A stretch of DNA of 64,000 nucleotides. Origin: Larus michahellis (lineage: Eukaryota; Chordata; Aves; Charadriiformes; Laridae). Every line of letters starts with the position of its first letter. The stretch's first letter is position 1. A model generated the notes under the pieces. The model saw only the letters and a list, made by a program, of their open reading frames with translations, was not told where the DNA came from and made no database searches. The stretch spans positions 30,681,071 through 30,745,070 of the forward strand of contig NC_133930.1 in NCBI RefSeq assembly GCF_964199755.1, given 5' to 3'. Made by a program: the position numbers and the translations under genes. Below are positions 1 to 46,153 of the stretch, piece by piece.

Positions 1-2101
1 AGCATCAATCTCTGCAGCCAGGCGCCTGATCTCCTTCCTCAGGAGTTCCATTGCTGGGGATTGTTCCCTGCAGTCACCAGGAAAGCAGATCTCGTCAGAG
101 CGCTGCCCAGCCCCTCCCAGAGCCTCCAAGCTCAGGGAGAGCAGAGAGAGGGGCGCTCGAGCCCCCTTTTCTTTCCCTGGTTTGTAAGCGCTTCCCTCCC
201 CCTCCGGGTTGAGCCAAAGGCCCAGGCAGGAGCGAAAGGCATGAGCCCTGGGCACAGTGCAAGGGAAGGCAAATAGCACGGGCTCATCTGCCGCTAGCCC
301 GCCAAAGGTGCTGCAGGTGAGGAGAGAGGAGAGGGCTCTTACCGTAGGGACCACAGGTTGGCTGATGCCTGCCCCAGCGGCACCTGAAAGAGAAAGGCTC
401 TCCCTTTGAGTCCCCGAGCTGCCGGGGCTTTCCAGAGCCGGTGGCTCTAGGAAGGCACAGCAGAAGCTGCTGCTGGTTCTCTGGGTCACTGCCTGGAACC
501 GGAGCGCTGGGCCATTTCCCCACCCACCGCCAGCAGGGCTCCTCCGTGGGCCTTTCCTGTCCCACAGCAGCAGTCACTGACCTGTGCCACATCCTCTGCC
601 CCCTGCATCCACATGAGCTGCAGGATCCCGCAGCAGGAACCAACTGTAATTCACATGAGCAAGAGAGAGTTGTTTTAGGAGGGTTTCTGACAATGCTTGG
701 AGTCCCGCGGTCTCCTCCCCCAGCACGGTGGCAAGAGGCTGGCTGAGGACACGGGGCAAGGGTGCAGAGAGAGGTTGCGGCTCCAAGAAGGGAGCCTCTC
801 TCTCCCTGGGCCTCGGGGCTCTGCACAGCCCTGCTTCCCGGGCACGCTGGCCGCCCCACAGCTACGCCCCATTTCCCCTCCCCGCTCTGCGCGTAGGGAG
901 CATCTTGGGAGCTCCCTGAGCTGCAGACATGGGAGGCTGGAAAGGCCCCACTAGCTCCTCTCCCCACTATCTCCCTGTGAACTTAAGCTCACACTCCCTG
1001 CCTCTGTGCCTCCGCTGGCAGCAGACAAAGACTCACCGAGAGCACCTATGATCATCACGAAGATTGCAAAGATCCCCTTCTTGCTCGAGGTGACGATCTC
1101 TTGCCTGAAAAAGAGGGAGTTCTGAGCTTAGCAGTGGCCAAGGGCAGAGCCCTGCACGAGGGGACCTTCTCTTCCAAGCCAAGGAGCAGGAATTTTGGAG
1201 GAGACAGGGTCTGCTGGTGGGGAGCACCGCCAGCCTCCCCCTGCTCGCCCTGACCCACTGTCACCTCTCGTCTCCGTGTCCCCACTGCGCACGTCTTGTA
1301 CTCACAGGGTGGAGATGCCTGTGCTGAGGCATCTCTGGATGGCGTCCACAGCCGCTGGCAGACCGAAGACCAACCCTGGGCAAAGGAACCGCAGAAAAGC
1401 CTGAGGACCCTTCTTGAGGACACTGGTCCAACGCGTGCCAGATCCCTGCAGGGAGGTGGGCGCCGGTCCTCCCTCCCTGGGGGCAGGGGCAGGGCCGTGG
1501 TTCTGCCCTGGAGAAGGGGGCAGCTGGGCGCAGCCTGGGAGTGGGGTACAAGGGCCGGGCAGGATCCCCTTGCAGGCAGGGCACTGCTGGCGTGCCTGGG
1601 CAGGGGGGCTGGCACGAGTCCCGGCCTACCCCGTGGTTAGTGCAGTATCCCACAAAGACACGGGCACGGTAGCCATCTCCGTCATGGTCACCGGGAGGCG
1701 AGGTGGCCCCAGGCCTCCCTCGGGGCAGGATGAGGCTGGGTGTGCAGGCCCGTGGCTCCCGGCCGAGCCAGGCAGGCTTGGTGCAAACATGGGGCGAAAG
1801 GCAGCACTGAACTTACGCTTCTTTTCTGCAGCCCTGCGGCGTGCGGGCCTGGGCCGTCTGGTGCCCTGAGCCTCCTGAGATTTTACCTGGCTCTCCCGCA
1901 AGCTTAGGTGGCCTCCTTCAGCCGCAGGAGTGTTGTGTGTGCGGGCAGATCCCTCCTGGAGATAGCCGTGAGGAGAACGCCTGCCACAGGCACACAGCCA
2001 GCAGCACACCGCGAGACCACATCTTATGGCCCACGGTGCATGACCTCACAAAGCCTGTCCCCGCACGGTCTGAGGTCGTGGCTGTGATGTCAGAGGAGGA
2101 A
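1..2101 (-). CDS. SUN-domain protein, array copy A (3' part lies outside the window)
   Basis: Only the 5' exons are in the window. In transcript order they are: candidate exon 1 2050-2101, basic exon 2 1817-1874, exon 3 1306-1375, transmembrane exon 4 1037-1104, exon 5 582-643, exon 6 343-383, and coiled-coil exon 7, cut by the window edge at 1-67. Splice sites are canonical (for example acceptor tttctctttcag and donor gtaagag around exon 6). Exon 3 has two replacements against the other copies (IQR where they have VQG). The frame is open through all visible exons, including exon 2, which is not frameshifted here. The SUN domain itself would lie to the left of position 1. Confidence 0.75.
1370..1880. 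repeat. Internal duplication, younger half (covers SUN exons 2-3)
   Basis: This stretch aligns with 3110-3615 over its whole length with many substitutions. Shared anchors include the blocks around the ccagatccctgcagggaggt / ccagacccctgcgggaggt pair, gcaggcagggc...tgcctgggcagg, and ccgagccaggcaggcttggt / ctaagccaagcaggcttggt. It includes the functional-looking exon 2 and the acceptor of exon 3. Equivalents are present in every unit. Confidence 0.8.
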
Positions 2102-2919
2102 CTGCAGGAGGGGTGGGGGGGTGGAGAGAGACCCCGCTGCCCGCTTGGCCGCTGTGCTTTGCATTTGTGAGCAGACAGTGTTGAAAACACAGCAATGTTT
2201 CAGGTGGTGCTGGGCAGTGCCTGCAGAGCGCCAAGGCTTCCTCTGGTCCTCTCTGTGTGTCCCCGAGCGAGTGGGCTGAGGCTGGGCGAGAGGCTGGGAG
2301 GGGGCACAGCAGGGAGAGCCAAGCCAAAGGGACCCAAGGGCTGCTCCACGCCATGGATCGTCAAGCTCCGCAATAAATCCTGGGCCTTTGGTCTTTCCAA
2401 CGCAGCCATTTCTTGGGGACTGGCTGGGCATCGGTGTGCTGGGGTCAACTCACCGCAGCCTGGGTCGAGAAAGGAGGGTGTTTGCTGTGTGCTTTATAGG
2501 CTCTCGGTGGACCAGGCAGGTTCCTGGGACGGGGGGGCACAGGCTGCCCCGAGGGCAGTGGGGATCTCGTGTGGTGGCACGGGGACATGGTGTGTAGCGA
2601 GCATGGCCCCCTGCCTTCCCCCTGCCTGGGCAGGGCCTGCCATGCCAGACGGGGATGTCCCATGGAGCAAGGAGGGGACAGTGGCTCAGGGTGACATGGG
2701 CTGGGGCTGCACGGGGCTTTGTCCCACTCAGCCCCTCTGGCTCCACATCGTCATGGGGAGCTTCAGCCACCAAATTGGCCCCAGGGACATGCCAAGGGGC
2801 TGCTGCGCCCCTCCATCCTCAACGGGACACACGAGCACCCAGGACACCCCAATGTCCCCTTCTGGGACAAACCAGCTTGCAGGGCCTTGCCGGGCCATGA
2901 TGAGAGTGAGCACCTCTAA

Positions 2920-3060
2920 GGACAAAGACGGAGCCCTGCTGTGCACTGTCTCCACGCCGTGCGAGCGAAGAGCGGGGGGAGCCGCCAGTGTGGAGGCCCT
3001 GTCCAGAAGACGGGCCTTGGGAAGCCTCTGGGCTTCCGTCCCTGCCACGGCCCCTCCACC
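2920..3060. repeat. Low-identity subrepeat also present at 4107-4200 and 46268-46390
   Basis: Three stretches share an order of short blocks: agagccctg, gcactgtctcc / gcactgcctcc, then gaggccctg-ccag-agac, then ccttggg-agcc. They mark an older round of duplication inside the unit and in the flank of the array. Confidence 0.55.
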
Positions 3061-3109
3061 GAGGGAGACCAGGGCTATGGCCAGACCATAAGCAATGCTG
3101 AAGACCAAC

Positions 3110-3615
3110 CTTGCTCAACGACACTGGAGAAAAGCCTGCGGACTGTTCTCTAGGTGGCCGGCCCTTCAGGGCGTATGCCAGACCCCTGCGGGAGGTGGCA
3201 CTGGTCCTGTGCACTCCCTCCACAAAGCATGGGCAGGGGGCTGGGTTATGCCCTGGAGAGGGGGGCAGCCCTGCCACAGAGGGCCTGGCAGGTTCCCCTC
3301 GCAGGCAGGGCGCTGACGGCGTGCCTGGGCAGGGAGAACAGATGAGGCTTTGGCCTCTTGGCCTCTACCGTACCGGTGTACCCTCTGGTTACTCCAGGAT
3401 CCCACAAAGACGTGGACGTGGTACCCAGCTCCACATGGGCACGTAGGGCAGGTGGCCCCAGGGCTCCCTCGGGGCTTGATGACGCTGGTTCTGCGGGGCC
3501 GTGGGTCCCGGCTAAGCCAAGCAGGCTTGGTACAGTCATGAGGAACATCGCTTCCTTTTCTCAGGCTGAACTCAACAGCACTCGGGCAGAGCTCAGACTC
3601 TCCTGCGCTCAAGGC
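3110..3615. repeat. Internal duplication, decayed half (fossil SUN exons 2-3)
   Basis: Partner of 1370-1880. The position matching exon 3 still reads LVFSIAYGLAIAL (3045-3106 side, against LVFGLPAAVDAI in exon 3). The donor matching exon 2 is destroyed, since gtaagt has become gatgtt. This looks like the remnant of a second, older SUN gene 5' end carried along inside each unit. It lies at 11774-12279, 20433-20938, 29079-29584 and 37765-38270 in units 2-5. Confidence 0.7.
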
Positions 3616-3639
3616 AGGTTTCTAAGCCCTGCGGCTTTT

Positions 3640-3870
3640 ACTATGCCTACAGCTCCTGACAGCTTCCCCCTCCGGAACAACCAGCCCTGCATTAGGCTCT
3701 GTGTGTCCTATCCACCAGCTGATGTCTCCAGGAGAGACTGTCTGCTGTCTGCTGCTCTCCTTCAGAGGGCTGTTAATGCCCCTTGTGCTCTTGGAGGAGC
3801 CCTTCTCCTCTTCATCTTGGGGAGAAACGAAGCTCTCCTCCAAGCCTATGCCCACTTGCTCCACTGCAGG
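3640..3870 (-). other. Candidate 5' coding exon of the SUN gene (unit 1)
   Basis: On the minus strand an acceptor-like site (attcctgcag) is followed by a frame that looks like coding sequence, unlike its surroundings. It is acidic then Ser/Lys-rich (for example EESFVSPQDEEEKGSSKST) and reaches a possible donor (gtaaaa) near 3640, in phase 1. The nucleoplasmic segment of a SUN protein could look like this. Phase does not match candidate exon 1 or exon 2 directly, but it matches exon 3 (phase 1). Equivalent frames recur in units 2-5 (e.g. 12304-12534, 20963-21193, 29609-29839, 38295-38525) and are missing from unit 6. Confidence 0.3.
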
Positions 3871-4469
3871 AATGCTGCCTGCCCAGGGGTGGACACTCAG
3901 GCAACAGCCACCAAAATGTGGCCAAGGGAACACCTGCCATGAGCCAAGAGCCACCAGGACAGCACGAGCTCCTTCCAGGTGGGAGACAGTGGCTCACAGT
4001 GCCGTGGGGCTGGGCTTGGTGGCCACTCGCCTTTTCTCCAGCACTGCAGCTGCAGCGTGCTGGCCCTTTCCAGCTGGTGCCCTGCTCCTCGGGAGAGGGG
4101 CTACCCCTCTGGGAGGAAACAGGCAGAGCCCTGTTTTGCACTGCCTCCATGCCACGAGAGCCGAGGCCCTGGCCAGGAGACAGCCTTTGGGCAGCCCACC
4201 GGGAGACATCCCCGCCGTGCTGAGACAGAAACAGCAGCAGGCGCAGCAGGGCAGCACAACCGCTTCTCACCTCGACTGCCCCCGGCCCCCATAGCACCAA
4301 CCTGCCCCTGGGCAGGCGTCTCAGAGGCCTGGCGGTCTACGGGGAGAGGGGAGCAGCTGCCCTCCTCCACAGCCCCCACCTCTTCCCAGGGCCTCTGCAG
4401 CACAAGGGCCAGAGCCCTCTCTGAAACAGCCCCCACGGCTTCTCTCCCTCACCACAGACCCACCAGGAC

Positions 4470-4470
<1 letters not shown>

Positions 4471-4500
<30 letters not shown>
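4471..4500 (+). repeat. (CAG)10 microsatellite, unit 1
   Basis: Ten perfect CAG triplets followed by CAC. The length varies between units. Confidence 0.98.
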
Positions 4501-4502
<2 letters not shown>

Positions 4503-4672
4503 CGGGGCCGGGGGTCCCAGCGAGGCGAGGGCTGGGCTCTCGCGTGGCTCTGCCAGAGGCGGCTCAGAACCCTGCACCGTGGTTGCAGCAGGGGCCCACA
4601 AACGGCTTGTGCTGGAGAGCAGCAGGAACTTGCGGGTTCCAGTCGGAGCAGTTTCCAAGGGCCGAGCCAGAG

Positions 4673-5260
4673 GAATCATACAATCATACAATCATAGAAT
4701 CATAGGGTTGGAAGGGACCTCTGGAGATCATCAGGTCCCACCCGCCTGCCAGAGCAGGGTCGTCTTAGAGCAGGTTGCCCAGGATCGTGTCCAGGCGGGT
4801 TTTGAATGTCTCCAGAGATGGAGACTCCACCGCCTCCCTGGGCAGCCTGTTCCAGTGCTCTGCCACTCTCAGGGTGAAGAAGTTCCTCCTCATGTTTCGG
4901 TGGAACTTCCTATGGTCAAGTTTGTGCCCGTGACCTCTTGTCCTGCCGCTGGGCACCACTGAAAAGAGCCTGGCCCCATCCTCCTGACACCCACCCTTGA
5001 AGTATTTAGAAGTGTTGATAAGGTCCCTGCTCAGCCGTCTTTTTTGCAGACTGAAGAGACCCAAATCCCTCAGCCTTTCCTCATAAGAGAGGTGCTCCAG
5101 TCCCCTAATCATCTTGGTAGCCCTTTGCTGCACCCTCTCCAGCAGTTCCCTGTCCCTCTTGAACCGGGGAGCCCAGAACTGGACACAGTACTCCAGGTGC
5201 GGCCTCACCAGGGCAGAGTAGCGGGGGAGGATGACCTCCCTCGACCTGCTGGCCACAGGA
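4673..5260 (-). mobile_element. CR1 LINE, 5'-truncated (unit 1)
   Basis: On the minus strand an open frame of 163 codons (4765-5256) encodes the C-terminal part of CR1 ORF2, with the typical [20 protein letters not shown] and [19 protein letters not shown]. It is followed by the CR1 3' end and its terminal short repeats, visible on the plus strand as gaatcatacaatcatacaatcata. The 5' end is cut at about 5260, as is usual for CR1. It sits between the SUN copies at the same place in every unit, so it inserted before the amplification. Confidence 0.95.
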
Positions 5261-6000
5261 AGCAGGGCGGGAGGAGAGAGGGGAAGAAAATGGGTGGCGT
5301 GGAGCAGGCTGTGGGGAGAGGTGTGCCAAGAGATCAGGGCTGTCTCGCCGGAGAGATGTGTTAGTGTTTCTTTTCTTCCTATATGAGAAGCAGGAGTTCA
5401 TAGGTTGCTCACAGGCAAGTCCATTAGATGCGGAGAAATTCCCCGAATCAATAGGTTGGTTTGGGTTTGTGACAGACGCCCGTGGACAGTATGGCCAGAC
5501 ACTAGACGCGACCTGTCCTGGGACTGGAGCAATAACTGCAGGGGCTGTGATACTGCGGCAGGAGCCCTTGTGCTGGAGCTTCAGACCCCTCAAGGGTCCC
5601 AGCCATGGCTGCACCCCATGTGGGCCCCCACTAGACCCAGTCCCCAGATGCACGGTGTCCCCTGAAGGGAATGGGGGCGGAGCTCATGAGCTCTGGGGAT
5701 CCTGACCCCCAACGCTGCCAGGCTCCGACGACTCCTGCCTGGGGTGAGACGCAGGGACGGCCCTCGTGCCAAAGGATTTCACCAAGGACCTTAGGCAAGG
5801 AAAGGCTACGGGAGCGTCGTCTCCTTTTGCTCGGTTAGGAAACATCTCCTTGGTGGAGAGAAAGCGGAAAGCCTGAGGAAGGCCTCAGCCTGCGAAAGGC
5901 AGAAGTTGGCACCTTTGAGGGGGCCTCTGAAACGACATTGCTCTGCACCAGACTAACGGCCGCATCCCTCTGCTCTGTTTCTCAGTTTTCTGCTTTAATT
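5261..6000. other. Spacer between the CR1 and the 3' end of the next SUN copy
   Basis: About 740 bases (also at 13919-14658, 22566-23305, 31233-31972, 39919-40658). I see no gene. Open frames on both strands overlap one another and match no family I recognise. Confidence 0.5.
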
Positions 6001-6006
6001 TTTATT
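6001..6006 (-). promoter_or_regulatory. Polyadenylation signal of the SUN gene (copy B)
   Basis: AATAAA on the minus strand starts 14 bases after the TAG stop of copy B. The same signal occurs at 14659-14664, 23306-23311, 31973-31978 and 40659-40664. It implies a very short 3' UTR and supports the chosen stop codon and strand. Confidence 0.7.
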
Positions 6007-6019
6007 GAGGGAAGAAGGT

Positions 6020-9000
6020 CTACACAGGTGTCTGGCCGACGGCCTTCCTTCCCACGATCTTCCCATGCACTTGCACTCGATAAATGCAGGTGTATCCTGG
6101 TTTTCCCCAGTTGCTCCGTATGCCAAGTTTCAGAAACCGAAAGCCTCTGGGAATCCCATTCTGCAAAGAAACCGTGGCAAAAAGCAGCGTTACTCCAGGG
6201 TGTAAAGAGTGAGAGCAGGCTCTGTGCGTCTTCCTCTGACCGCCCGGCCTCTGCCCCGGGCCCTTCTCCCCTCCCCTCCTCCCACGCAGGCGGCAAAGGA
6301 CCCCTGTGCCCCTGCAGAGCAAACGCCCGGCCTCGGGGAGGTGGCGGGCAGCCGTGGAAACCTGCGGCTCGCTGGTGCCGGGGAAGCAGGGCCCAGGGAA
6401 AGTCCTGCCGCCAGGGCAAGGTGCTGGGCATCCGCCCTGCCACCGCCTGCCCGGCGGCTGCAGCTGGGGAGCTGCAGGGTCCAACACAGACATGGGGCTG
6501 ATCTGCTCTTCCTTCTGCTTTTGCCTCCCTGACGGATGCCACTCTTCCCCCGCATCCCACCAATGGTTCTCTCGGCCACGGTCAGGCCCCTGTCCCAGCA
6601 GGGACCGTCTGCACTTCTTCTGCAAGCGGCTTGCTGGCCAACCGGCGTTGCTGCCCTGGCCTCTTGCCCAGACGCACACACTGTACCTGCAGAGGGAAGG
6701 TCTGATTTGGCCCTTTCTGCAAAGTGTAGGTGAATGTCCCCAGCAGAGTTTCTTGCTCGCCTTCCTCATCCAGTCCCTTGGAGATAAAGCACAGGGGAGG
6801 AAGTCAGTCGTGACCCGAGCACCAGGAAACACTCATGCCAGACCCGCGCCCGTCATCTGCACCCCACTCCTGCGGCTCCAGTGCGGTCTGGCGCAGGATG
6901 CGGTGGGGCTGAGTGTCCTCCTTGTGTGTTGCTCAGGGGCCCGGAGGTGCTGGGCCAAAAGGTGCTGAGGGAGCCTTAGGAGGGGTGATACCACCCGGCA
7001 CGTCCCTTGAAATGTCCCCTCAGGGAACGGCAGAATCTCGGCAGATGCGCAGAGAGCAGCAAGTCCCCGTTAGAGCTTTTGCCCGCGGCCAGGTCCCAAC
7101 CCCCAGTGCCCGGCAGAGACTTACAGAGACAGTGAAATCTCGGGGGGCACTGCTGACAGTCCCCAGCGCAGAGGCCATCTTTGCGGTGTGCTGTATGGTT
7201 ATGGCTATTGGTGTTATTTGTGTGGGCAACCGGATCAGCACCTCGCTCCAAGACCCTTGGAAAGGCCAGCAGTATCCCGGCAAAGCATCCGGCTGAAAGC
7301 AAGAGCACAGAATGTGAGGGTGTGATGGGAACACGACGATGTAGTAGAGCCCGTGTGCTCCCGTGGAGCCAGGAGCACAGGCGGCACTGCCCCTGTGGGC
7401 TGTGCTTGTGCTCGAAACGAATGGCGTGTTGGGAGGCGGACAGGAGCTCTGCAGCCAGCAGCTCTGCAGCCTCCCACCCCCTCCACTGCCCCCGTGGGAG
7501 AGGGACAATCAGAGCTGTGGCAGGGAAATGGCGTCCCGAAGGAGAAGTATCTTCACCCAGCAGGGACCAGGGAGGGTGGGCAGGAAGCTCAGCTCAGCGC
7601 AGCCCCTTTCTGAGGGCAACTGCTGTTTTCTAGGGAGCCAAGCCCTGTGGGAGACCTCAGGTGCCTGGCACCGCCCCGGTGCCGGGGCCTTGGGCAACGC
7701 CATTGGCCTGAGGGGAGATGCCCCAGGACTTGCCCCACACCTTCAAAGAGGCAAGAGAAGCAGCAATGACGGTTTCTGCTCCTGTACCTGCACAAAGGTG
7801 TCCTGGGGGGCTGGAGCACACAGGAACCAAAACACCCTGCAGAGTCCTGCAGAGCTGCTGGACGATCTCTGCAGGTCCATGGCAGCCCCTGAAGGGAGAA
7901 GAGCGCAGGTGACTGCAAAAGGCCCAGGCTCAGAGCACCTGGTGGTTGCAGGCAACTACTAAGGCTGCCTGCCAGCCCCACAGCCAGCAGCGCACGCTTG
8001 GAGGTGCCCCAGGAGAAGGAGGGGATCCCCGTGCCCCACGCCCCTCCCGGCTGCACAAAGAGAAGGTCTGCGGGTGCTGGGAGACAGCAAGCCCCCTGGG
8101 GAAGAGCTGCAGACCCAAGCCGAGGCCGCGCTGCGTGGACAGCCCGTCCGCTCGCTTTTGTTCCCCAGCAAAGCTCAGCGGAGAGGGAGAGGGCAGAAAT
8201 GCTGCCAGGGGCACCAGCGAGGGGTCCGACGGCAGGGCTGGGCCCAGCTCTGCCACAGTCACGCTCTTGGGCGCCGTGGTTTCGTTCAATCTCCCTACGC
8301 TTTGTCGAGCAGAGTCTGCAGCGCAGCCTCCTTTTGGGAGCACTGAGCAGGAGTTCAGTGCGATGAGAGCCCTGCCTGCCTGCGTCCATCCGTACCTGCC
8401 TCTTTCAGAGCCCAGTCAGACATCTGCGTGCTTGCAGACATTGCCTCTCTCATTAGCCGAACTTCCTGGAAAGACACATGGGAGCAGGGGAAATGACCAC
8501 AGGTCCCTTGGCCAGGGCAAGGGGCTTTAGAGCGGAGAAGCTCGACCAGCAGCCCCTGGCAGGGGATGGCTGTGTGGGGTGAGCAGGAAAAGCCCACCAA
8601 GTGGCCCAGGAAGCGCCTTGCCCGTCCCAGCCCTCTTTCCCAAAGTGCAGCATCACCTCCTTGCTAGCATCAATCTCTGCAGCCAGGCGCCTGATCTCCT
8701 TCCTCAGGAGTTCCATTGCTGGGGATTGTTCCCTGCAGTCACCAGGAAAGCAGATCTCGTCAGAGCGCTGCCCAGCCCCTCCCAGAGCCTCCAAGCTCAG
8801 GGAGAGCAGAGAGAGGGGCGCTCGAGCCCCCTTTTCTTTCCCTGGTTTGTAAGCGCTTCCCTCCCCCTCCGGGTTGAGCCAAAGGCCCAGGCAGGAGCGA
8901 AAGGCATGAGCCCTGGGCACAGTGCAAGGGAAGGCAAATAGCACGGGCTCATCTGCCGCTAGCCCGCCAAAGGTGCTGCAGGTGAGGAGAGAGGAGAGGG

Positions 9001-10765
9001 CTCTTACCGTAGGGACCACAGGTTGGCTGATGCCTGCCCCAGCGGCACCTGAAAGAGAAAGGCTCTCCCTTTGAGTCCCCGAGCTGCCGGGGCTTTCCAG
9101 AGCCGGTGGCTCTAGGAAGGCACAGCAGAAGCTGCTGCTGGTTCTCTGGGTCACTGCCTGGAACCGGAGCGCTGGGCCATTTCCCCACCCACCGCCAGCA
9201 GGGCTCCTCCGTGGGCCTTTCCTGTCCCACAGCAGCAGTCACTGACCTGTGCCACATCCTCTGCCCCCTGCATCCACATGAGCTGCAGGATCCCGCAGCA
9301 GGAACCAACTGTAATTCACATGAGCAAGAGAGAGTTGTTTTAGGAGGGTTTCTGACAATGCTTGGAGTCCCGCGGTCTCCTCCCCCAGCACGGTGGCAAG
9401 AGGCTGGCTGAGGACACGGGGCAAGGGTGCAGAGAGAGGTTGCGGCTCCAAGAAGGGAGCCTCTCTCTCCCTGGGCCTCGGGGCTCTGCACAGCCCTGCT
9501 TCCCGGGCACGCTGGCCGCCCCACAGCTACGCCCCATTTCCCCTCCCCGCTCTGCGCGTAGGGAGCATCTTGGGAGCTCCCTGAGCTGCAGACATGGGAG
9601 GCTGGAAAGGCCCCACTAGCTCCTCTCCCCACTATCTCCCTGTGAACTTAAGCTCACACTCCCTGCCTCTGTGCCTCCGCTGGCAGCAGACAAAGACTCA
9701 CCGAGAGCACCTATGATCATCGCGAAGATTGCAAAGATCCCCTTCTTGCTCGAGGTGACGATCTCTTGCCTGAAAAAGAGGGAGTTCTGAGCTTAGCAGT
9801 GGCCAAGGGCAGAGCCCTGCACGAGGGGACCTTCTCTTCCAAGCCAAGGAGCAGGAATTTTGGAGGAGACAGGGCCTGCTGGTGGGGAGCACCGCCAGCC
9901 TCCCCCTGCTCGCCCTGACCCACTGTCACCCCTCGTTTCCGTGTCCCCACTGCGCACGTCTTGTACTCACAGGGTGGAGATGCCTGTGCTGAGGCATCCC
10001 TGGACGGCGTCCACAGCCGCTGGCAGACCGAAGACCAACCCTGGGCAAAGAAACCGCAGAAAAGCCTGAGGACCCTTCTTGAGGACACTGGTCCAACGCG
10101 TGCCAGATCCCTGCAGGGAGGTGGGCGCCGGTCCTCCCTCCCTGGGGGCAGGGGCAGGGCCGTGGTTCTGCCCTGGAGAAGGGGGCAGCTGGGCGCAGCC
10201 TGGGAGTGGGGTACAAGGGCCGGGCAGGATCCCCTCGCAGGCAGGGCACTGCTGGCGTGCCTGGGCAGGGGGGCTGGCACGAGTCCCGGCCTACCCCGTG
10301 GTTAGTGCAGTATCCCACAAAGACACGGGCACGGTAGCCATCTCCGTCATGGTCACCGGGAGGCGAGGTGGCCCCAGGCCTCCCTCGGGGCAGGATGAGG
10401 CTGGGTGTGCAGGCCCGTGGCTCCCGGCCGAGCCAGGCAGGCTTGGTGCAAACACGGGGCGAAAGGCAGCACTGAACTTACGCTTCTTTTCTGCAGCCCT
10501 GCGGCGTGCGGGCCTGGGCCGTCTGGTGCCTGAGCCTCCTGAGATTTTACCTGGCTCTCCCGCAAGCTTAGGTGGCCTCCTTCAGCCGCAGGAGTGTTGT
10601 GTGTGCGGGCAGATCCCTCCTGGAGATAGCCGTGAGGAGAACGCCTGCCACAGGCACACAGCCAGCAGCACACCGCGAGACCACATCTTATGGCCCACGG
10701 TGCATGACCTCACAAAGCCTGTCCCCGCACGGTCTGAGGTCGTGGCTGTGATGTCAGAGGAGGAA
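6020..10765 (-). CDS. SUN-domain protein, array copy B (frameshift in basic exon)
   Basis: Exons in transcript order: 10714-10765 (candidate), 10482-10538, 9971-10040, 9702-9769, 9247-9308, 9008-9048, 8657-8732, 8396-8465, 7788-7888, 7125-7292, 6687-6776, 6020-6160 (stop TAG at 6020-6022). Exon phases agree from exon 3 to the stop. Exon 2 is one base shorter than in copies A, C, E and F (a lost C in the ccc run near 10530). Reading from exon 2 would therefore change frame and hit a stop in the transmembrane exon region. If translation starts upstream of exon 2 this copy is broken. The SUN domain is intact. The transmembrane exon has a Val-to-Ala change (IFAIFAMIIG). Confidence 0.75.
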
Positions 10766-13134: not shown

Positions 13135-13158
13135 CAGCAGCAGCAGCAGCAGCAGCAG
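13135..13158 (+). repeat. (CAG)8 microsatellite, unit 2
   Basis: Eight perfect CAG triplets at the same unit position. Confidence 0.98.
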
Positions 13159-13330
13159 CACGGGGCCGGGGGTCCCAGCGAGGCGAGGGCTGGGCTCTCG
13201 CGTGGCTCTGCCAGAGGCGGCTCAGAACCCTGCACCGTGGTTGCAGCAGGGGCCCACAAACGGCTTGTGCTGGAGAGCAGCAGGAACTTGCGGGTTCCAG
13301 TCGGAGCAGTTTCCAAGGGCCGAGCCAGAG

Positions 13331-30472: not shown

Positions 30473-30474
<2 letters not shown>

Positions 30475-34900: not shown

Positions 34901-36738
34901 GGAAGGCAAATAGCACGGGCTCATCTGCCGCTAGCCCGCCAAAGGTGCTGCAGGTGAGGAGAGAGGAGAGGGCTCTTACCGTAGGGACCACAGGTTGGCT
35001 GATGCCTGCCCCAGCGGCACCTGAAAGAGAAAGGCTCTCCCTTTGAGTCCCCGAGCTGCCGGGGCTTTCCAGAGCCGGTGGCTCTAGGAAGGCACAGCAG
35101 AAGCTGCTGCTGGTTCTCTGGGTCACTGCCTGGAACCGGAGCGCTGCGCCATTTCCCCACCCACCGCCAGCAGGGCTCCTCCGTGGGCCTTTCCTGTCCC
35201 ACAGCAGCAGTCACTGACCTGTGCCACATCCTCTGCCCCCTGCATCCACATGAGCTGCAGGATCCCGCAGCAGGAACCAACTGTAATTCACATGAGCAAG
35301 AGAGAGTTGTTTTAGGAGGGTTTCTGACAATGCTTGGAGTCCCGCGGTCTCCTCCCCCAGCACGGTGGCAAGAGGCTGGCTGAGGACACGGGGCAAGGGT
35401 GCAGAGAGAGGTTGCGGCTCCAAGAAGGGAGCCTCTCTCTCCCTGGGCCTCGGGGCTCTGCACAGCCCTGCTTCCCGGGCACGCTGGCCGCCCCACAGCT
35501 ACGCCCCATTTCCCCTCCCCGCTCTGCGCGTAGGGAGCATCTGGGGAGCTCCCTGAGCTGCAGACATGGGAGGCTGGAAAGGCCCCACTAGCTCCTCTCC
35601 CCACTATCTCCCTGTGAACTTAAGCTCACACTCCCTGCCTCTGTGCCTCCGCTGGCAGCAGACAAAGACTCACCGAGAGCACCTATGATCATCACGAAGA
35701 TTGCAAAGATCCCCTTCTTGCTCGAGGTGACGATCTCTTGCCTGAAAAAGAGGGAGTTCTGAGCTTAGCAGTGGCCAAGGGCAGAGCCCTGCACGAGGGG
35801 ACCTTCTCTTCCAAGCCAAGGAGCAGGAATTTTGGAGGAGACAGGGCCTGCTGGTGGGGAGCACCGCCAGCCTCCCCCTGCTCGCCCTGACCCACTGTCA
35901 CCCCTCGTCTCCGTGTCCCCACTGCGCACGTCTTGTACTCACAGGGTGGAGATGCCTGTGCTGAGGCATCCCTGGACGGCGTCCACAGCCGCTGGCAGAC
36001 CGAAGACCAACCCTGGGCAAAGAAACCGCAGAAAAGCCTGAGGACCCTTCTTGAGGACACTGGTCCAACGCGTGCCAGATCCCTGCAGGGAGGTGGGCGC
36101 CGGTCCTCCCTCCCTGGGGGCAGGGGCAGGGCCGTGGTTCTGCCCTGGAGAAGGGGGCAGCTGGGCGCAGCCTGGGAGTGGGGTACAAGGGCCGGGCAGG
36201 ATCCCCTCGCAGGCAGGGCACTGCTGGCGTGCCTGGGCAGGGGGGCTGGCACGAGTCCCGGCCTACCCCGTGGTTAGTGCAGTATCCCACAAAGACACGG
36301 GCACGGTAGCCATCTCCGTCATGGTCACCGGGAGGCGAGGTGGCCCCAGGCCTCCCTCGGGGCAGGATGAGGCTGGGTGTGCAGGCCCGTGGCTCCCGGC
36401 CGAGCCAGGCAGGCTTGGTGCAAACACGGGGCGAAAGGCAGCACTGAACTTACGCTTCTTTTCTGCAGCCCTGCGGCGTGCGGGCCTGGGCCGTCTGGTG
36501 CCCTGAGCCTCCTGAGATTTTACCTGGCTCTCCCGCAAGCTTAGGTGGCCTCCTTCAGCCGCAGGAGTGTTGTGTGTGCGGGCAGATCCCTCCTGGAGAT
36601 AGCCGTGAGGACAACGCCTGCCACAGGCACACAGCCAGCAGCACACCGCGAGACCACATCTTATGGCCCACGGTGCATGACCTCACAAAGCCTGTCCCCG
36701 CACGGTCTGAGGTCGTGGCTGTGATGTCAGAGGAGGAA
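31992..36738 (-). CDS. SUN-domain protein, array copy E
   Basis: Exons: 36687-36738 (candidate), 36454-36511, 35943-36012, 35674-35741, 35219-35280, 34980-35020, 34629-34704, 34368-34437, 33760-33860, 33097-33264, 32659-32748, 31992-32132. The frame is open throughout, with no deletion in exon 2. One replacement in the last exon (Arg to Trp, KLGIWSNWG) sits next to the SNWG motif. Otherwise the protein matches copy C. Confidence 0.83.
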
Positions 36739-39124
36739 CTGCAGGAGGGGTGGGGGGGTGGAGAGAGACCCCGCTGCCCGCTTGGCCGCTGTGCTTTGCA
36801 TTTGTGAGCAGACAGTGTTGAAAACACAGCAATGTTTCAGGTGGTGCTGGGCAGTGCCTGCAGAGCGCCAAGGCTTCCTCTGGTCCTCTCTGTGTGTCCC
36901 CGAGCGAGTGGGCTGAGGCTGGGCGAGAGGCTGGGAGGGGACACAGCAGGGAGAGCCAAGCCAAAGGGACCCAAGGGCTGCTCCACGCCATGGATCGTCA
37001 AGCTCCGCAATAAATCCTGGGCCTTTGGTCTTTCCAACGCAGCCATTTCTTGGGGACTGGCTGGGCATCGGTGTGCTGGGGTCAACCCACCGCAGCCTGG
37101 GTCGAGAAAGGAGGGTGTTTGCTGTGTGCTTTATAGGCTCTCGGTGGACCAGGCAGGTTCCTGGGACGGGGGGGCACAGGCTGCCCCGAGGGCAGTGGGG
37201 ATCTCGTGTGGTGGCACGGGGACATGGTGTGTAGCGAGCATGGCCCCCTGCCTTCCCCCTGCCTGGGCAGGGCCTGCCGTGCCAGACGGGGATGTCCCAT
37301 GGAGCAAGGAGGGGACAGTGGCTCAGGGTGACATGGGCTGGGGCTGCACGGGGCTTTGTCCCACTCAGCCCCTCTGGCTCCACATCGTCATGGGGAGCTT
37401 CAGCCACCAAATTGGCCCCAGGGACATGCCAAGGGGCTGCTGCGCCCCTCCATCCTCAACGGGACACACGAGCACCCAGGACACCCCAATGTCCCCTTCT
37501 GGGACAAACCAGCTTGCAGGGCCTTGCCGGGCCATGATGAGAGTGAGCACCTCTAAGGACAAAGACGGAGCCCTGCTGTGCACTGTCTCCACGCCGTGCG
37601 AGCGAAGAGCGGGGGGAGCCGCCAGTGTGGAGGCCCTGTCCAGAAGACGGGCCTTGGGAAGCCTCTGGGCTTCCGTCCCTGCCACGGCCCCTCCACCGGC
37701 CACAGTCCCTCCACCGAGGGAGACCAGGGCTATGGCCAGACCATAAGCAATGCTGAAGACCAACCTTGCTCAACGACACTGGAGAAAAGCCTGCGGACTG
37801 TTCTCTAGGTGGCCGGCCCTTCAGGGCGTATGCCAGACCCCTGCGGGAGGTGGCACTGGTCCTGTGCACTCCCTCCACAAAGCATGGGCAGGGGGCTGGG
37901 TTATGCCCTGGAGAGGGGGGCAGCCCTGCCACAGAGGGCCTGGCAGGTTCCCCTCGCAGGCAGGGCGCTGACGGCGTGCCTGGGCAGGGAGAACAGATGA
38001 GGCTTTGGCCTCTTGGCCTCTACCGTACCGGTGTACCCTCTGGTTACTCCAGGATCCCACAAAGACGTGGACGTGGTACCCAGCTCCACATGGGCACGTA
38101 GGGCAGGTGGCCCCAGGGCTCCCTCGGGGCTTGATGACGCTGGTTCTGCGGGGCCGTGGGTCCCGGCTAAGCCAAGCAGGCTTGGTACAGTCATGAGGAA
38201 CATCGCTTCCTTTTCTCAGGCTGAACTCAACAGCACTCGGGCAGAGCTCAGACTCTCCTGCGCTCAAGGCAGGTTTCTAAGCCCTGCGGCTTTTACTATG
38301 CCTACAGCTCCTGACAGCTTCCCCCTCCGGAACAACCAGCCCTGCATTAGGCTCTGTGTGTCCTATCCACCAGCTGATGTCTCCAGGAGAGACTGTCTGC
38401 TGTCTGCTGCTCTCCTTCAGAGGGCTGTTAATGCCCCTTGTGCTCTTGGAGGAGCCCTTCTCCTCTTCATCTTGGGGAGAAACGAAGCTCTCCTCCAAGC
38501 CTATGCCCACTTGCTCCACTGCAGGAATGCTGCCTGCCCAGGGGTGGACACTCAGGCAACAGCCACCAAAATGTGGCCAAGGGAACACCTGCCATGAGCC
38601 AAGAGCCACCAGGACAGCACGAGCTCCTTCCAGGTGGGAGACAGTGGCTCACAGTGCCGTGGGGCTGGGCTTGGTGGCCACTCGCCTTTTCTCCAGCACT
38701 GCAGCTGCAGCGTGCTGGCCCTTTCCAGCTGGTGCCCTGCTCCTCGGGAGAGGGGCTACCCCTCTGGGAGGAAACAGGCAGAGCCCTGTTTTGCACTGCC
38801 TCCATGCCACGAGAGCCGAGGCCCTGGCCAGGAGACAGCCTTTGGGCAGCCCACCGGGAGACATCCCCGCCGTGCTGAGACAGAAACAGCAGCAGGCGCA
38901 GCAGGGCAGCACAACCGCTTCTCACCTCGACTGCCCCCAGCCCCCATAGCACCAACCTGCCCCTGGGCAGGCGTCTCAGAGGCCTGGCGGTCTACGGGGA
39001 GAGGGGAGCAGCTGCCCTCCTCCACAGCCCCCACCTCTTCCCAGGGCCTCTGCAGCACAAGGGCCAGAGCCCTCTCTGAAACAGCCCCCACGGCTTCTCT
39101 CCCTCACCACAGACCCACCAGGAC

Positions 39125-39125
<1 letters not shown>

Positions 39126-39158
<33 letters not shown>
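39126..39158 (+). repeat. (CAG)11 microsatellite, unit 5
   Basis: Eleven perfect CAG triplets. Confidence 0.98.
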
Positions 39159-39160
<2 letters not shown>

Positions 39161-39330
39161 CGGGGCCGGGGGTCCCAGCGAGGCGAGGGCTGGGCTCTCG
39201 CGTGGCTCTGCCAGAGGCGGCTCAGAACCCTGCACCGTGGTTGCAGCAGGGGCCCACAAACGGCTTGTGCTGGAGAGCAGCAGGAACTTGCGGGTTCCAG
39301 TCGGAGCAGTTTCCAAGGGCCAAGCCAGAG

Positions 39331-39918
39331 GAATCATACAATCATACAATCATAGAATCATAGGGTTGGAAGGGACCTCTGGAGATCATCAGGTCCCACC
39401 CGCCTGCCAGAGCAGGGTCGTCTTAGAGCAGGTTGCCCAGGATCGTGTCCAGGCGGGTTTTGAATGTCTCCAGAGATGGAGACTCCACCGCCTCCCTGGG
39501 CAGCCTGTTCCAGTGCTCTGCCACTCTCAGGGTGAAGAAGTTCCTCCTCATGTTTCGGTGGAACTTCCTATGGTCAAGTTTGTGCCCGTGACCTCTTGTC
39601 CTGCCGCTGGGCACCACTGAAAAGAGCCTGGCCCCATCCTCCTGACACCCACCCTTGAAGTATTTAGAAGTGTTGATAAGGTCCCTGCTCAGCCGTCTTT
39701 TTTGCAGACTGAAGAGACCCAAATCCCTCATCCTTTCCTCATAAGAGAGGTGCTCCAGTCCCCTAATCATCTTGGTAGCCCTTTGCTGCACCCTCTCCAG
39801 CAGTTCCCTGTCCCTCTTGAACCGGGGAGCCCAGAACTGGACACAGTACTCCAGGTGCGGCCTCACCAGGGCAGAGTAGCGGGGGAGGATGACCTCCCTC
39901 GACCTGCTGGCCACAGGA
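39331..39918 (-). mobile_element. CR1 LINE, 5'-truncated (unit 5)
   Basis: Same insertion, with the ORF2 remnant at 39423-39914. Confidence 0.95.
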
Positions 39919-40677
39919 AGCAGGGCGGGAGGAGAGAGGGGAAGAAAATGGGTGGCGTGGAGCAGGCTGTGGGGAGAGGTGTGCCAAGAGATCAGGGCTG
40001 TCTCGCCGGAGAGATGTGTTAGTGTTTCTTTTCTTCCTATATGAGAAGCAGGAGTTCATAGGTTGCTCACAGGCAAGTCCATTAGATGCGGAGAAATTCC
40101 CCGAATCAATAGGTTGGTTTGGGTTTGTGACAGACGCCCGTGGACAGTATGGCCAGACACTAGACGCGACCTGTCCTGGGACTGGAGCAATAACTGCAGG
40201 GGCTGTGATACTGCGGCAGGAGCCCTTGTGCTGGAGCTTCAGACCCCTCAAGGGTCCCAGCCATGGCTGCACCCCATGTGGGCCCCCACTAGACCCAGTC
40301 CCCAGATGCACGGTGTCCCCTGAAGGGAATGGGGGCGGAGCTCATGAGCTCTGGGGATCCTGACCCCCAACGCTGCCAGGCTCCGACGACTCCTGCCTGG
40401 GGTGAGACGCAGGGACGGCCCTCGTGCCAAAGGATTTCACCAAGGACCTTAGGCAAGGAAAGGCTACGGGAGCGTCGTCTCCTTTTGCTCGGTTAGGAAA
40501 CATCTCCTTGGTGGAGAGAAAGCGGAAAGCCTGAGGAAGGCCTCAGCCTGCGAAAGGCAGAAGTTGGCACCTTTGAGGGGGCCTCTGAAACGACATTGCT
40601 CTGCACCAGACTAACGGCCGCATCCCTCTGCTCTGTTTCTCAGTTTTCTGCTTTAATTTTTATTGAGGGAAGAAGGT

Positions 40678-43600
40678 CTACACAGGTGTCTGGCCGACGG
40701 CCTTCCTTCCCACGATCTTCCCATGCACTTGCACTCGATAAATGCAGGTGTATCCTGGTTTTCCCCAGTTGCTCCGTATGCCAAGTTTCAGAAACCGAAA
40801 GCCTCTGGGAATCCCATTCTGCAAAGAAACCGTGGCAAAAAGCAGCGTTACTCCGGGGTGTAAAGAGTGAGAGCAGGCTCTGTGCGTCTTCCTCTGACCG
40901 CCCGGCCTCTGCCCCGGGCCCTTCTCCCCTCCCCTCCTCCCACGCAGGCGGCAAAGGACCCCTGTGCCCCTGCAGAGCAAACGCCCGGCCTCGGGGAGGT
41001 GGCGGGCAGCCGTGGAAACCTGCGGCTCGCTGGTGCCAGGGAAGCAGGGCCCAGGGAAAGTCCTGCTGCCAGGGCAAGGTGCTGGGCATCCGCCCTGCCA
41101 CCGCCTGCCCGGCGGCTGCAGCTGGGGAGCTGCAGGGTCCAACACAGACATGGGGCTGATCTGCTCTTCCTTCTGCTTTTGCCTCCCTGACGGATGCCAC
41201 TCTTCCCCCGCATCCCACCCATGGTTCTCTCGGCCACGGTCAGGCCCCTGTCCCAGCAGGGACCGTCTGCACTTCTTCTGCAAGCGGCTTGCTGGCCAAC
41301 CGGCGTTGCTGCCCTGGCCTCTTGCCCAGACGCACACACTGTACCTGCAGAGGGAAGGTCTGATTTGGCCCTTTCTGCAAAGTGTAAGTGAATGTCCCCA
41401 GCAGAGTTTCTTGCTCGCCTTCCTCATCCAGTCCCTTGGAGATAAAGCACAGGGGAGGAAGTCAGTCGTGACCCGAGCACCAGGAAACACTCATGCCAGA
41501 CCCGTGCCCGTCATCTGCACCCCACTCCTGCGGCTCCAGTGCGGTCTGGCGCAGGATGCGGTGGGGCTGAGTGTCCTCCTTGTGTGTTGCTCAGGGGCCC
41601 GGAGGTGCTGGGCCAAAAGGTGCTGAGGGAGCCTTAGGAGGGGTGATACCACCCGGCACGTCCCTTGAAATGTCCCCTCAGGGAACGGCAGAATCTCGGC
41701 AGATGCGCAGAGAGCAGCAAGTCCCCGTTAGAGCTTTTGCCCGCGGCCAGGTCCCAACCCCCAGTGCCCGGCAGAGACTTACAGAGACAGTGAAATCTCG
41801 GGGGGCACTGCTGACAGTCCCCAGCGCAGAGGCCATCTTTGCGGTGTGCTGTATGGTTATGGCTATTGGTGTTATTTGTGTGGGCAACCGGATCAGCACC
41901 TCGCTCCAAGACCCTTGGAAAGGCCAGCAGTATCCCGGCAAAGCATCCAGCTGAAAGCAAGAGCACAGAATGTGAGGGTGTGATGGGAACACGACGATGT
42001 AGTAGAGCCCGTGTGCTCCCGTGGAGCCAGGAGCACAGGCGGCACTGCCCCTGTGGGCTGTGCTTGTGCTCGAAACGAATGGCATGTTGGGAGGCGGACA
42101 GGAGCTCTGCAGCCAGCAGCTCTGCAGCCTCCCACCCCCTCCACTGCCCCCGTGGGAGAGGGACAATCAGAGCTGTGGCAGGGAAATGGCGTCCCGAAGG
42201 AGAAGTATCTTCACCCAGCAGGGACCAGGGAGGGTGGGCAGGAAGCTCAGCTCAGCGCAGCCCCTTTCTGAGGGCAACTGCTGTTTTCTAGGGAGCCAAG
42301 CCCTGTGGGAGACCTCAGGTGCCTGGCACCGCCCCGGTGCCGGGGCCTTGGGCAACGCCATTGGCCTGAGGGGAGATGCCCCAGGACTTGCCCCACACCT
42401 TCAAAGAGGCAAGAGAAGCAGCAATGACGGTTTCTGCTCCTGTACCTGCACAAAGGTGTCCTGGGGGGCTGGAGCACACAGGAACCAAAACACCCTGCAG
42501 AGTCCTGCAGAGCTGCTGGACGATCTCTGCAGGTCCATGGCAGCCCCTGAAGGGAGAAGAGCGCAGGTGACTGCAAAAGGCCCAGGCTCAGAGCACCTGG
42601 TGGTTGCAGGCAACTACTAAGGCTGCCTGCCAGCCCCACAGCCAGCAGCGCACGCTTGGAGGTGCCCCAGGAGAAGGAGGGGATCCCCGTGCCCCACGCC
42701 CCTCCCGGCTGCACAAAGAGAAGGTCTGCGGGTGCTGGGAGACAGCAAGCCCCCTGGGGAAGAGCTGCAGACCCAAGCCGAGGCCGCGCTGCGTGGACAG
42801 CCCGTCCGCTCGCTTTTGTTCCCCAGCAAAGCTCAGCGGAGAGGGAGAGGGCAGAAATGCTGCCAGGGGCACCAGCGAGGGGTCCGACGGCAGGGCTGGG
42901 CCCAGCTCTGCCACAGTCACGCTCTTGGGCGCCGTGGTTTCGTTCAATCTCCCTACGCTTTGTCGAGCAGAGTCTGCAGCGCAGCCTCCTTTTGGGAGCA
43001 CTGAGCAGGAGTTCAGTGCGATGAGAGCCCTGCCTGCCTGCGTCCATCCGTACCTGCCTCTTTCAGAGCCCAGTCAGACATCTGCGTGCTTGCAGACATT
43101 GCCTCTCTCATTAGCCGAACTTCCTGGAAAGACACATGGGAGCAGGGGAAATGACCACAGGTCCCTTGGCCAGGGCAAGGGGCTTTAGAGCGGAGAAGCT
43201 CGACCAGCAGCCCCTGGCAGGGGATGGCTGTGTGGGGTGAGCAGGAAAAGCCCACCAAGTGGCCCAGGAAGGGCCTTGCCCGTCCCAGCCCTCTTTCCCA
43301 AAGTGCAGCATCACCTCCTTGCTAGCATCAATCTCTGCAGCCAGGCGCCTGATCTCCTTCCTCAGGAGTTCCATTGCTGGGGATTGTTCCCTGCAGTCAC
43401 CAGGAAAGCAGATCTCGTCAGAGCGCTGCCCAGCCCCTCCCAGAGCCTCCAAGCTCAGGGAGAGCAGAGAGAGGGGCGCTCGAGCCCCCTTTTCTTTCCC
43501 TGGTTTGTAAGCGCTTCCCTCCCCCTCCGGGTTGAGCCAAAGGCCCAGGCAGGAGCGAAAGGCATGAGCCCTGGGCACAGTGCAAGGGAAGGCAAATAGC

Positions 43601-45424
43601 ACGGGCTCATCTGCCGCTAGCCCGCCAAAGGTGCTGCAGGTGAGGAGAGAGGAGAGGGCTCTTACCGTAGGGACCACAGGTTGGCTGATGCCTGCCCCAG
43701 CGGCACCTGAAAGAGAAAGGCTCTCCCTTTGAGTCCCCGAGCTGCCGGGGCTTTCCAGAGCCGGTGGCTCTAGGAAGGCACAGCAGAAGCTGCTGCTGGT
43801 TCTCTGGGTCACTGCCTGGAACCGGAGCGCTGGGCCATTTCCCCACCCACCGCCAGCAGGGCTCCTCCGTGGGCCTTTCCTGTCCCACAGCAGCAGTCAC
43901 TGACCTGTGCCACATCCTCTGCCCCCTGCATCCACATGAGCTGCAGGATCCCGCAGCAGGAACCAACTGTAATTCACATGAGCAAGAGAGAGTTGTTTTA
44001 GGAGGGTTTCTGACAATGCTTGGAGTCCCGCGGTCTCCTCCCCGAGCACAGTGGCAAGAGGCTGGCTGAGGACACGGGGCAAGGGTGCAGAGAGAGGTTG
44101 CGGCTCCAAGAAGGGAGCCTCTCTCTCCCTGGGCCTCGGGGCTCTGCACAGCCCTGCTTCCCGGGCACGCTGGCCGCCCCACAGCTACGCCCCATTTCCC
44201 CTCCCCGCTCTGCGCGTAGGGAGCATCTGGGGAGCTCCCTGAGCTGCAGACATGGGAGGCTGGAAAGGCCCCACTAGCTCCTCTCCCCACTATCTCCCTG
44301 TGAACTTAAGCTCACACTCCCTGCCTCTGTGCCTCCGCTGGCAGCAGACAAAGACTCACCGAGAGCACCTATGATCATCACGAAGATTGCAAAGATCCCC
44401 TTCTTGCTCGAGGTGACGATCTCTTGCCTGAAAAAGAGGGAGTTCTGAGCTTAGCAGTGGCCAAGGGCAGAGCCCTGCACGAGGGGACCTTCTCTTCCAA
44501 GCCAAGGAGCAGGAATTTTGGAGGAGACAGGGCCTGCTGGTGGGGAGCACCGCCAGCCTCCCCCTGCTCGCCCTGACCCACTGTCACCCCTCGTCTCCGT
44601 GTCCCCACTGCGCACGTCTTGTACTCACAGGGTGGAGATGCCTGTGCTGAGGCATCCCTGGACGGCGTCCACAGCCGCTGGCAGACCGAAGACCAACCCT
44701 GGGCAAAGAAACCGCAGAAAAGCCTGAGGACCCTTCTTGAGGACACTGGTCCAACGCGTGCCAGATCCCTGCAGGGAGGTGGGCGCCGGTCCTCCCTCCC
44801 TGGGGGCAGGGGCAGGGCCGTGGTTCTGCCCTGGAGAAGGGGGCAGCTGGGCGCAGCCTGGGAGTGGGGTACAAGGGCCGGGCAGGATCCCCTCGCAGGC
44901 AGGGCACTGCTGGCGTGCCTGGGCAGGGGGGCTGGCACGAGTCCCGGCCTACCCCGTGGTTAGTGCAGTATCCCACAAAGACACGGGCACGGTAGCCATC
45001 TCCGTCATGGTCACCGGGAGGCGAGGTGGCCCCAGGCCTCCCTCGGGGCAGGATGAGGCTGGGTGTGCAGGCCCGTGGCTCCCGGCCGAGCCAGGCAGGC
45101 TTGGTGCAAACACGGGGCGAAAGGCAGCACTGAACTTACGCTTCTTTTCTGCAGCCCTGCGGCGTGCGGGCCTGGGCCGTCTGGTGCCCTGAGCCTCCTG
45201 AGATTTTACCTGGCTCTCCCGCAAGCTTAGGTGGCCTCCTTCAGCCGCAGGAGTGTTGTGTGTGCGGGCAGATCCCTCCTGGAGATAGCCGTGAGGACAA
45301 CGCCTGCCACAGGCACACAGCCAGCAGCACACCGCGAGACCACATCTTATGGCCCACGGTGCATGACCTCACAAAGCCTGTCCCCGCACGGTCTGAGGTC
45401 GTGGCTGTGATGTCAGAGGAGGAA
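40678..45424 (-). CDS. SUN-domain protein, array copy F (last copy, at the array edge)
   Basis: Exons: 45373-45424 (candidate), 45140-45197, 44629-44698, 44360-44427, 43905-43966, 43666-43706, 43315-43390, 43054-43123, 42446-42546, 41783-41950, 41345-41434, 40678-40818. The frame is open throughout. The first residue of exon 10 is Leu instead of Pro (LDALPGYCW). This copy lies closest to RCL1 and is divergent from it. Its upstream DNA is replaced from about 46153, so any promoter or first exon lying more than about 730 bases upstream of exon 1 in the other copies is missing here or replaced by a diverged version. Confidence 0.82.
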
Positions 45425-46153
45425 CTGCAGGAGGGGTCGGGGGGTGGAGAGAGACCCCGCTGCCCGCTTGGCCGCTGTGCTTTGCATTTGTGAGCAGACA
45501 GTGTTGAAAACACAGCAATGTTTCAGGTGGTGCTGGGCAGTGCCTGCAGAGCGCCAAGGCTTCCTCTGGTCCTCTCTGTGTGTCCCCGAGCGAGTGGGCT
45601 GAGGCTGGGCGAGAGGCTGGGAGGGGACACAGCAGGGAGAGCCAAGCCAAAGGGACCCAAGGGCTGCTCCACGCCATGGATCGTTAAGCTCCGCAATAAA
45701 TCCTGGGCCTTTGGTCTTTCCAACGCAGCCATTTCTTGGGGACTGGCTGGGCATCGGTGTGCTGGGGTCAACCCACCGCAGCCTGGGTCGAGAAAGGAGG
45801 GTGTTTGCTGTGTGCTTTATAGGCTCTCGGTGGACCAGGCAGGTTCCTGGGACGGGGGGGCACAGGCTGCCCCGAGGGCAGTGGGGATCTCGTGTGGTGG
45901 CACGGGGACATGGTGTGTAGCGAGCATGGCCCCCTGCCTTCCCCCTGCCTGGGCAGGGCCTGCCATGCCAGACGGGGATGTCCCATGGAGCAAGGAGGGG
46001 ACAGTGGCTCAGGGTGACATGGGCTGGGGCTGCACGGGGCTTTGTCCCACTCAGCCCCTCTGGCTCCACATCGTCATGGGGAGCTTCAGCCACCAAATTG
46101 GCCCCAGGGACATGCCAAGGGGCTGCTGCGCCCCTCCATCCTCAACGGGACAC
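43324..46153. repeat. Array unit 6, truncated at the array edge
   Basis: Near-identical match to the other units stops at about 46153, corresponding to unit position ~2830. The internal duplication, CAG tract and CR1 are therefore absent. Beyond this point the sequence is a diverged relative of the unit (46154-46420) and then unrelated. Confidence 0.9.

Follow-up and report, generated by a model that had tools for sequence, protein, structure and literature searches.

Why should a gene for a SUN-domain protein stand in a head-to-tail series of almost identical copies in a gull genome, and do these copies still encode working proteins? The question is raised by a 64,000-nucleotide stretch of Larus michahellis DNA (hereafter the window), which corresponds to positions 30681071-30745070 of an 87.7-Mb contig (NC_133930.1, here C41); genome searches covered the whole 1.405-Gb assembly. 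SUN proteins bridge the nucleus and the cytoskeleton, and the small mammalian members of the family take part in sperm head shaping and in the joining of head and tail; two of them, SPAG4 (SUN4) and SUN5, are single-copy genes in mammals. On balance, we favour the reading in which a Z-borne gene of the SPAG4/SUN5 branch was amplified into two inverted arrays linked by gene conversion, with the right-hand copies predicted to encode spermatid proteins of the linker of nucleoskeleton and cytoskeleton (LINC) type.

We found that the head-to-tail array spans positions 1-46189 of the window, the latter being its right edge. Five units are complete in the window and a sixth is covered from 1 to 2866; the whole right array extends over C41:30678000-30727259 and counts six units. 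The initial annotation had described a tandem SUN-domain array with units of about 8.66 kb, six of which were visible, and had the series continuing leftward. The period is borne out by spacings of 8686, 8667, 8647, 8658 and 8665 bp (range 8.65-8.69 kb) and by 99.3-99.6% identity between units in self-alignment. The count of six also stands, but the array extends just 3.1 kb further to the left of the window, so that one reaching far leftward is ruled out. Numbered R1 to R6 from the right, and delimited by self-alignment and spacing, the units are:

37504-46189, minus strand: unit R1 (8686 bp), the rightmost, adjoining RCL1
28837-37503, minus strand: unit R2 (8667 bp)
20190-28836, minus strand: unit R3 (8647 bp), with a 1-bp deletion in its putative exon E1
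11532-20189, minus strand: unit R4 (8658 bp)
2867-11531, minus strand: unit R5 (8665 bp), with a 1-bp deletion in its putative exon E1
1-2866, minus strand: unit R6, 5' part; the 3' part lies outside the window to the left and ends at C41:30678000

Over about 8.2 kb, 14-31 substitutions separate any two of the units R1-R5; R6 was left out because the compared stretch passes the array edge. A (GCA)n tract of 9-12 repeats is found at window positions 4470 (R5), 13134 (R4), 30439 (R2) and 39125 (R1), with none listed for R3, and its differences in length are a marker of separate copies. The G+C content is 59-65% within the array versus 39-44% past about 50 kb of the window.

Each unit carries one gene on the minus strand. 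For R1, its exons are placed as follows, with the basis of the call in brackets where one applies:

45140-45197, minus strand: putative exon E1, doubtful (deletions, acceptor comparison)
44629-44698, minus strand: exon E2 (frame, splice sites)
44360-44427, minus strand: exon E3, bulk of the transmembrane helix; island of divergence from the inverted array, 22% of nucleotides
43905-43966, minus strand: exon E4 (frame, splice sites)
43666-43706, minus strand: exon E5 (frame, splice sites)
43315-43390, minus strand: exon E6, putative short coiled coil (heptad count)
43054-43123, minus strand: exon E7, putative coiled coil and start of the SUN region (heptad count)
42446-42546, minus strand: exon E8, KASH-lid region, shorter than in SUN2 (structure alignment)
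41783-41950, minus strand: exon E9, SUN core with counterparts of SUN2 C601, H628 and S641; island of divergence, 13-14% of nucleotides
41345-41434, minus strand: exon E10, SUN core; 9% nucleotide divergence from the inverted array
40678-40818, minus strand: exon E11, SUN core with counterparts of SUN2 Y703, C705 and Y707, the stop codon and then AATAAA

The ten exons E2-E11 are bounded by GT/AG sites and form a single open frame of 294 codons with one terminal stop in all six right units, and an AATAAA poly(A) signal lies 13 nt past the stop codon. Frame and splice sites are likewise intact in the two full copies of an inverted left array (LA1 and LA2, described below), i.e., in 8/8 full copies. 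At least 11 phase-consistent exons had initially been assigned to each unit; this holds for E2-E11 in 6/6 units, but not for E1, which is frameshifted in R3 and R5.

In the protein query, which included E1, each variable position was filled with its most frequent residue, and all six units differ from this query somewhere. The spliced minus-strand product matches the Pfam Sad1_UNC profile (PF07738) with 118.6 bits (E 2.5e-34; residues 177-302, profile positions 8-131 of 132), which confirms the SUN assignment made from the letters, and it matches solved SUN2 and SUN1 chains with E values from 9.3e-34 to 8.4e-30. The initial annotation had also read a transmembrane helix and a coiled coil. The helix is found in E3-E4, where the best 19-residue hydropathy reaches 2.57; the short coiled coil in E6-E7 is only plausible, with 10 of 13 a/d positions hydrophobic in the best register by a simple scoring that includes alanine. 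Similar to the array product, the germ-cell proteins SPAG4 and SUN5 of mammals possess a C-terminal SUN domain, one transmembrane stretch and a short coiled coil.

In SUN2, the pocket for the KASH tail is described as S641, Y703, Y707 and H628 together with the C601-C705 bond, while C563 is the cysteine bonded to KASH (PMC6527376). Having assigned the residue numbers of that source to alignment motifs ourselves, we found counterparts of all six pocket residues (C601, C705, H628, S641, Y703 and Y707) in the right array, whose E8 has a serine where SUN2 has the KASH-disulfide cysteine C563. The right array shares the lack of a counterpart of this cysteine with SPAG4 and SUN5, and it is with these that a tree groups the bird sequences: in the 11-row tree, the bird rows (right array, left array, a paralogue at 40.42 Mb of C41, and relatives on contigs C28 and C17) join SPAG4 and SUN5 (support 99/97) and stand apart from SUN3 and SUN1/2. 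SUN3-5 are characterized as having a shorter coiled coil, lacking the KASH-bonding cysteine and being largely restricted to germ cells (PMC5371868). The family probably belongs to the sperm-type SPAG4/SUN5 branch, since the tree and the missing KASH-bonding cysteine, as in SUN3-5, both point there.

The right array has an inverted partner at C41:30478064-30499702, which comprises one copy cut to E10-E11 and the two full copies LA1 and LA2. The arrays are about 180 kb apart, and no SUN exon or unit was found in about 60 kb examined of the 178-kb spacer. A full SUN domain had been claimed for every unit, and all six right units carry it, but LA1 matches PF07738 more weakly, with 78.9 bits; both LA1 and LA2 have tyrosine in place of the C601 counterpart and glutamine in place of the H628 counterpart. 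The similarity between the two arrays is markedly uneven. Most introns are 99-100% alike, and long stretches at or near zero divergence separate islands that fall on E3 (22%), E9 (13-14%), E10 (9%) and E7 (6-7%), two of which extend into the adjoining introns; the frame is kept throughout, also across an in-frame 3-bp insertion in E3. Between R1 and LA2, exons differ at 53/944 sites (5.6%) versus 53/3648 (1.45%) in the rest, which includes about 100 bp upstream of E1. Between R2 and LA1, exons (E1 included) account for 21% of the sequence and hold 54 of the 99 differences; when the exon mask was shifted circularly, 76 of 4507 placements gave at least as many exonic differences. Seven polymorphic sites are common to both arrays, and at four of them, positions 45773, 44709, 44663 and 44657, which fall in a single stretch, the LA1 state is present in R6 alone of the right copies. 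The simplest reading of this pattern is that conversion between the arrays acts over most of the unit and that the islands escaped it. When the genome was probed with the left-copy E9, nine places were returned, all on C41: two in the left array, six in the right array (85%) and the 40.42-Mb paralogue (73%). Among the islands, this source probe covered that of E9 only, for which it rules out borrowing from any other SUN gene in the assembly.

As for the chromosomal setting, the initial annotation had named RCL1 as the neighbour of the array and had suggested Z linkage. RCL1 is indeed recognizable:

49643-52061, plus strand: RCL1 exons 1 and 2 with the intervening intron, ends approximate, a divergent neighbour of R1 (open reading frame reading; PF01137)

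The two-exon reading scores 64.8 bits against PF01137. Of the genome's four DM-domain matches, two also lie on C41 (29.25 and 29.36 Mb). In birds, DMRT genes as well as RCL1 belong to the Z chromosome; C41 is thus most likely the bird Z chromosome and the array Z-linked, which supports the earlier suggestion.

We determined that amplification of this family extends past the right array, as it includes the inverted C41 array and, on C28, a related SUN gene in ten copies. The PF07738 search gave 45 exon matches in the genome. Apart from the arrays, C41 carries the SUN paralogue at 40.42 Mb, 9.7 Mb away, whose exons are similarly laid out and whose SUN domain scores 118.8 bits. In turn, C28, a 4.5-Mb contig, carries its ten copies in both orientations over about 470 kb (C28:337699-807060). 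Nine of the ten were compared: pairs are 99.4-99.8% alike over 6-10 kb, and E8-E11 are open in 9/9. The C28 gene shares with the array gene the order of counterparts of E6-E11 and the tree position, and differs from it by the mixed orientations, a KASH lid with the SETY motif and a higher Pfam score (134.9 bits). A C28 E11 probe hit 22 places, namely ten identical ones on C28, ten on C41, one on C17 at 91% and one on C554 at 86% identity, the last being an E11-like match at C554:10114-10244. The C17 locus, at about 349-351 kb, is a single C28-like copy without the start of E9 and its splice acceptor. If C28 is autosomal, genes of this kind can be amplified without sex linkage.

Together, these observations suggest the following course of events. 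A gene of the SPAG4/SUN5 branch would have been amplified on Z into two inverted arrays, which would since have co-evolved by gene conversion. Copies of the right array would be transcribed and give small proteins of the inner nuclear membrane; these may form trimers by way of the short coiled coil and bind an outer-membrane KASH partner, the likeliest setting being spermatids during nuclear shaping and tail attachment. Amplification would raise the dosage and conversion would keep the copies alike, while those of the left array are probably losing KASH binding or changed in it. The right-array protein is predicted to be a spermatid LINC component because of its branch placement, its retained KASH pocket and the germ-cell pattern of SUN3-5; a testis role for the array gene is, from its branch, a reasonable inference.

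Several observations weigh against this reading. The putative E1 lacks 1 bp in two of the six right copies (R3 and R5) as well as in LA2, and no start codon was found, the stretch upstream of E1 having been examined in comparison with the 40.42-Mb paralogue. In addition, the E1 acceptor is GG in both LA1 and LA2; the deletions and these acceptors rule out E1 as a secure coding exon. E1 and the N-terminus of the gene therefore seem doubtful, and the 314-residue product named in the initial annotation is for these reasons an unproven protein. In the six right copies, seven of the eight coding variants are nonsynonymous and one is synonymous, and variable sites are about as frequent in E2-E11 (8/887) as elsewhere between E1 and the stop (29/3632, a class in which putative E1 is counted). 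The KASH-lid region in E8 is shorter than its SUN2 and C28 counterparts, differs from SUN2 in sequence and is without the SETY stretch. The support for the bird rows as a single group is just 90/89 in the 11-row tree, and the SPAG4/SUN5 grouping is provisional, since it uses three human rows whose letters are themselves provisional. RNA-seq records from other birds, linked to our family by name, are not confined to testis: chicken SPAG4-like LOC107055086 and LOC107057467 appear in liver (PMC5930858), chicken SUN3-like LOC121109782 appears in embryo liver (PMC12111442), and muscle satellite cells of turkey show the SPAG4-like gene LOC104915044 (PMC5714890).

The alternative that survives best, although we hold it to be rather unlikely, is recent amplification under relaxed constraint, by which the copies would be redundant, drifting and homogenised by conversion, and the arrays a side effect of a GC-rich stretch prone to recombination instead of the outcome of selection for dosage. 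The predominance of nonsynonymous variants in the right array, exons as variable as the rest and the E1 deletions in R3, R5 and LA2 would all be expected in this case. The same applies to the ratio of nonsynonymous to synonymous rates (dN/dS) in the R2-LA1 divergence islands, which is 1.03, and to the full left copies, which have lost the C601 and H628 counterparts and of which LA1 scores so low. The remaining exons of this pair (E1 left out) show five differences, all nonsynonymous, of which one is private to R2. Yet, E2-E11 have stayed open with GT/AG sites in all eight full copies, and the C28 relative, with its high profile score, is open in every one of the nine copies (out of ten) that were examined. 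Moreover, R2 and the 40.42-Mb paralogue give a dS of 0.469 and a dN of 0.268 over the SUN exons (155 codons), and the resulting dN/dS of 0.57 speaks for older constraint. Past constraint is thus visible, while recent purifying selection is not visible in the right array, which weighs against calling all copies functional.

Diversifying selection, which would keep the transmembrane and SUN exons distinct and make the left array a source of a distinct SUN protein, e.g., one that does not bind KASH and interferes with trimers, appears improbable. It would account for the concentration of R1-LA2 and R2-LA1 differences in exons, an excess that few shifts of the mask reproduce, and for islands that sit on E3, E7, E9 and E10 amid near-identical sequence with the frame preserved even across the E3 insertion. 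However, the island dN/dS is not clearly above one and two islands spill over into introns. When the amino-acid differences in the SUN exons were polarised by the paralogue, 8/10 fell on the left array and 2/10 on the right (ten more could not be polarised), and several of the left-array changes affect conserved sites, a pattern that resembles decay. A bolder proposal invokes intragenomic conflict over sperm head shaping, in which the Z arrays and the C28 cluster were amplified separately, left-array proteins that remain membrane-spanning and trimeric but are devoid of the KASH pocket poison the LINC bridge, and conversion is resisted at the transmembrane and SUN exons; we regard it as highly improbable. 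That one or two real copies were multiplied by misassembly is scarcely credible, given the differing unit lengths, the substitutions that separate R1-R5, the unequal (GCA)n tracts and the variants common to the distant inverted array.

Returning to the amplified Z gene that we favour, sex-linked ampliconic testis families are well known from the chicken Z amplicon and from the mammalian X and Y. The gull array resembles them in its near-identical copies, inverted arms, gene conversion and sex linkage; it is smaller, consists of a SUN gene, has a testis expression that is presumed from its branch, and has a larger related cluster on another contig. The array looks real and looks like an addition to this known kind of sex-linked amplified genes. 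To our knowledge, no SUN gene figures in any list of ampliconic testis genes. Compared with mammalian SPAG4 and SUN5, the array gene occurs on a single contig in eight full copies (six right, two left) and has a short and divergent KASH-lid region.

The initial annotation knew of no description of such an array in birds, and among the literature matches listed no title describes one, which is weak evidence as most subscription journals lay outside the search; still, an expansion of SPAG4 is in print for a bird. A bulk analysis of gene families in the Asian king vulture lists SPAG4, alongside ADCY10, as expanded, in a passage that names neither a locus nor a chromosome and describes neither an array nor the structure of the gene (PMC11043450). 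SPAG4, SUN3 and SUN2 are also among the loci on autosomal scaffolds with SNPs (single-nucleotide polymorphisms) that are outliers between two penguin species, and where the same study mentions repeated gene blocks on Z, no SUN genes are named (PMC11371425). In chicken, the SUN3 gene LOC428505 is assigned to chromosome 2 (PMC9690689). Bird surveys have therefore flagged SPAG4 as expanded or divergently selected, in the passages concerned without a locus (PMC11043450; PMC11371425), and the array supplies a locus, a structure and testable residues. Amplified twice, in the inverted arrays on Z and on another contig, the SPAG4/SUN5 branch would offer a natural experiment on dosage, conversion and fast change of a nuclear bridge.

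Other SUN matches in the genome include SUN2-like and SUN1-like genes, named by similarity, on C1 and C12 (one locus apiece), as well as a weak profile match of 33.8 bits at C12:26019083-26019202 (26.02 Mb). A further match, at C4:61160790-61161071, lies outside the present SUN family; we had considered it a retrocopy and dropped this option, as its translation reads like what we take to be the SUN-type domain of HECTD1. Within unit R1, window positions 38189-37755 and 45108-44688 are alike at 71%, so that the sequence leading up to E2 is duplicated upstream, which points to an older internal duplication. The same unit contains, at 39340-39916, a retroelement remnant with a reverse-transcriptase-like open reading frame, presumably of the CR1 type.

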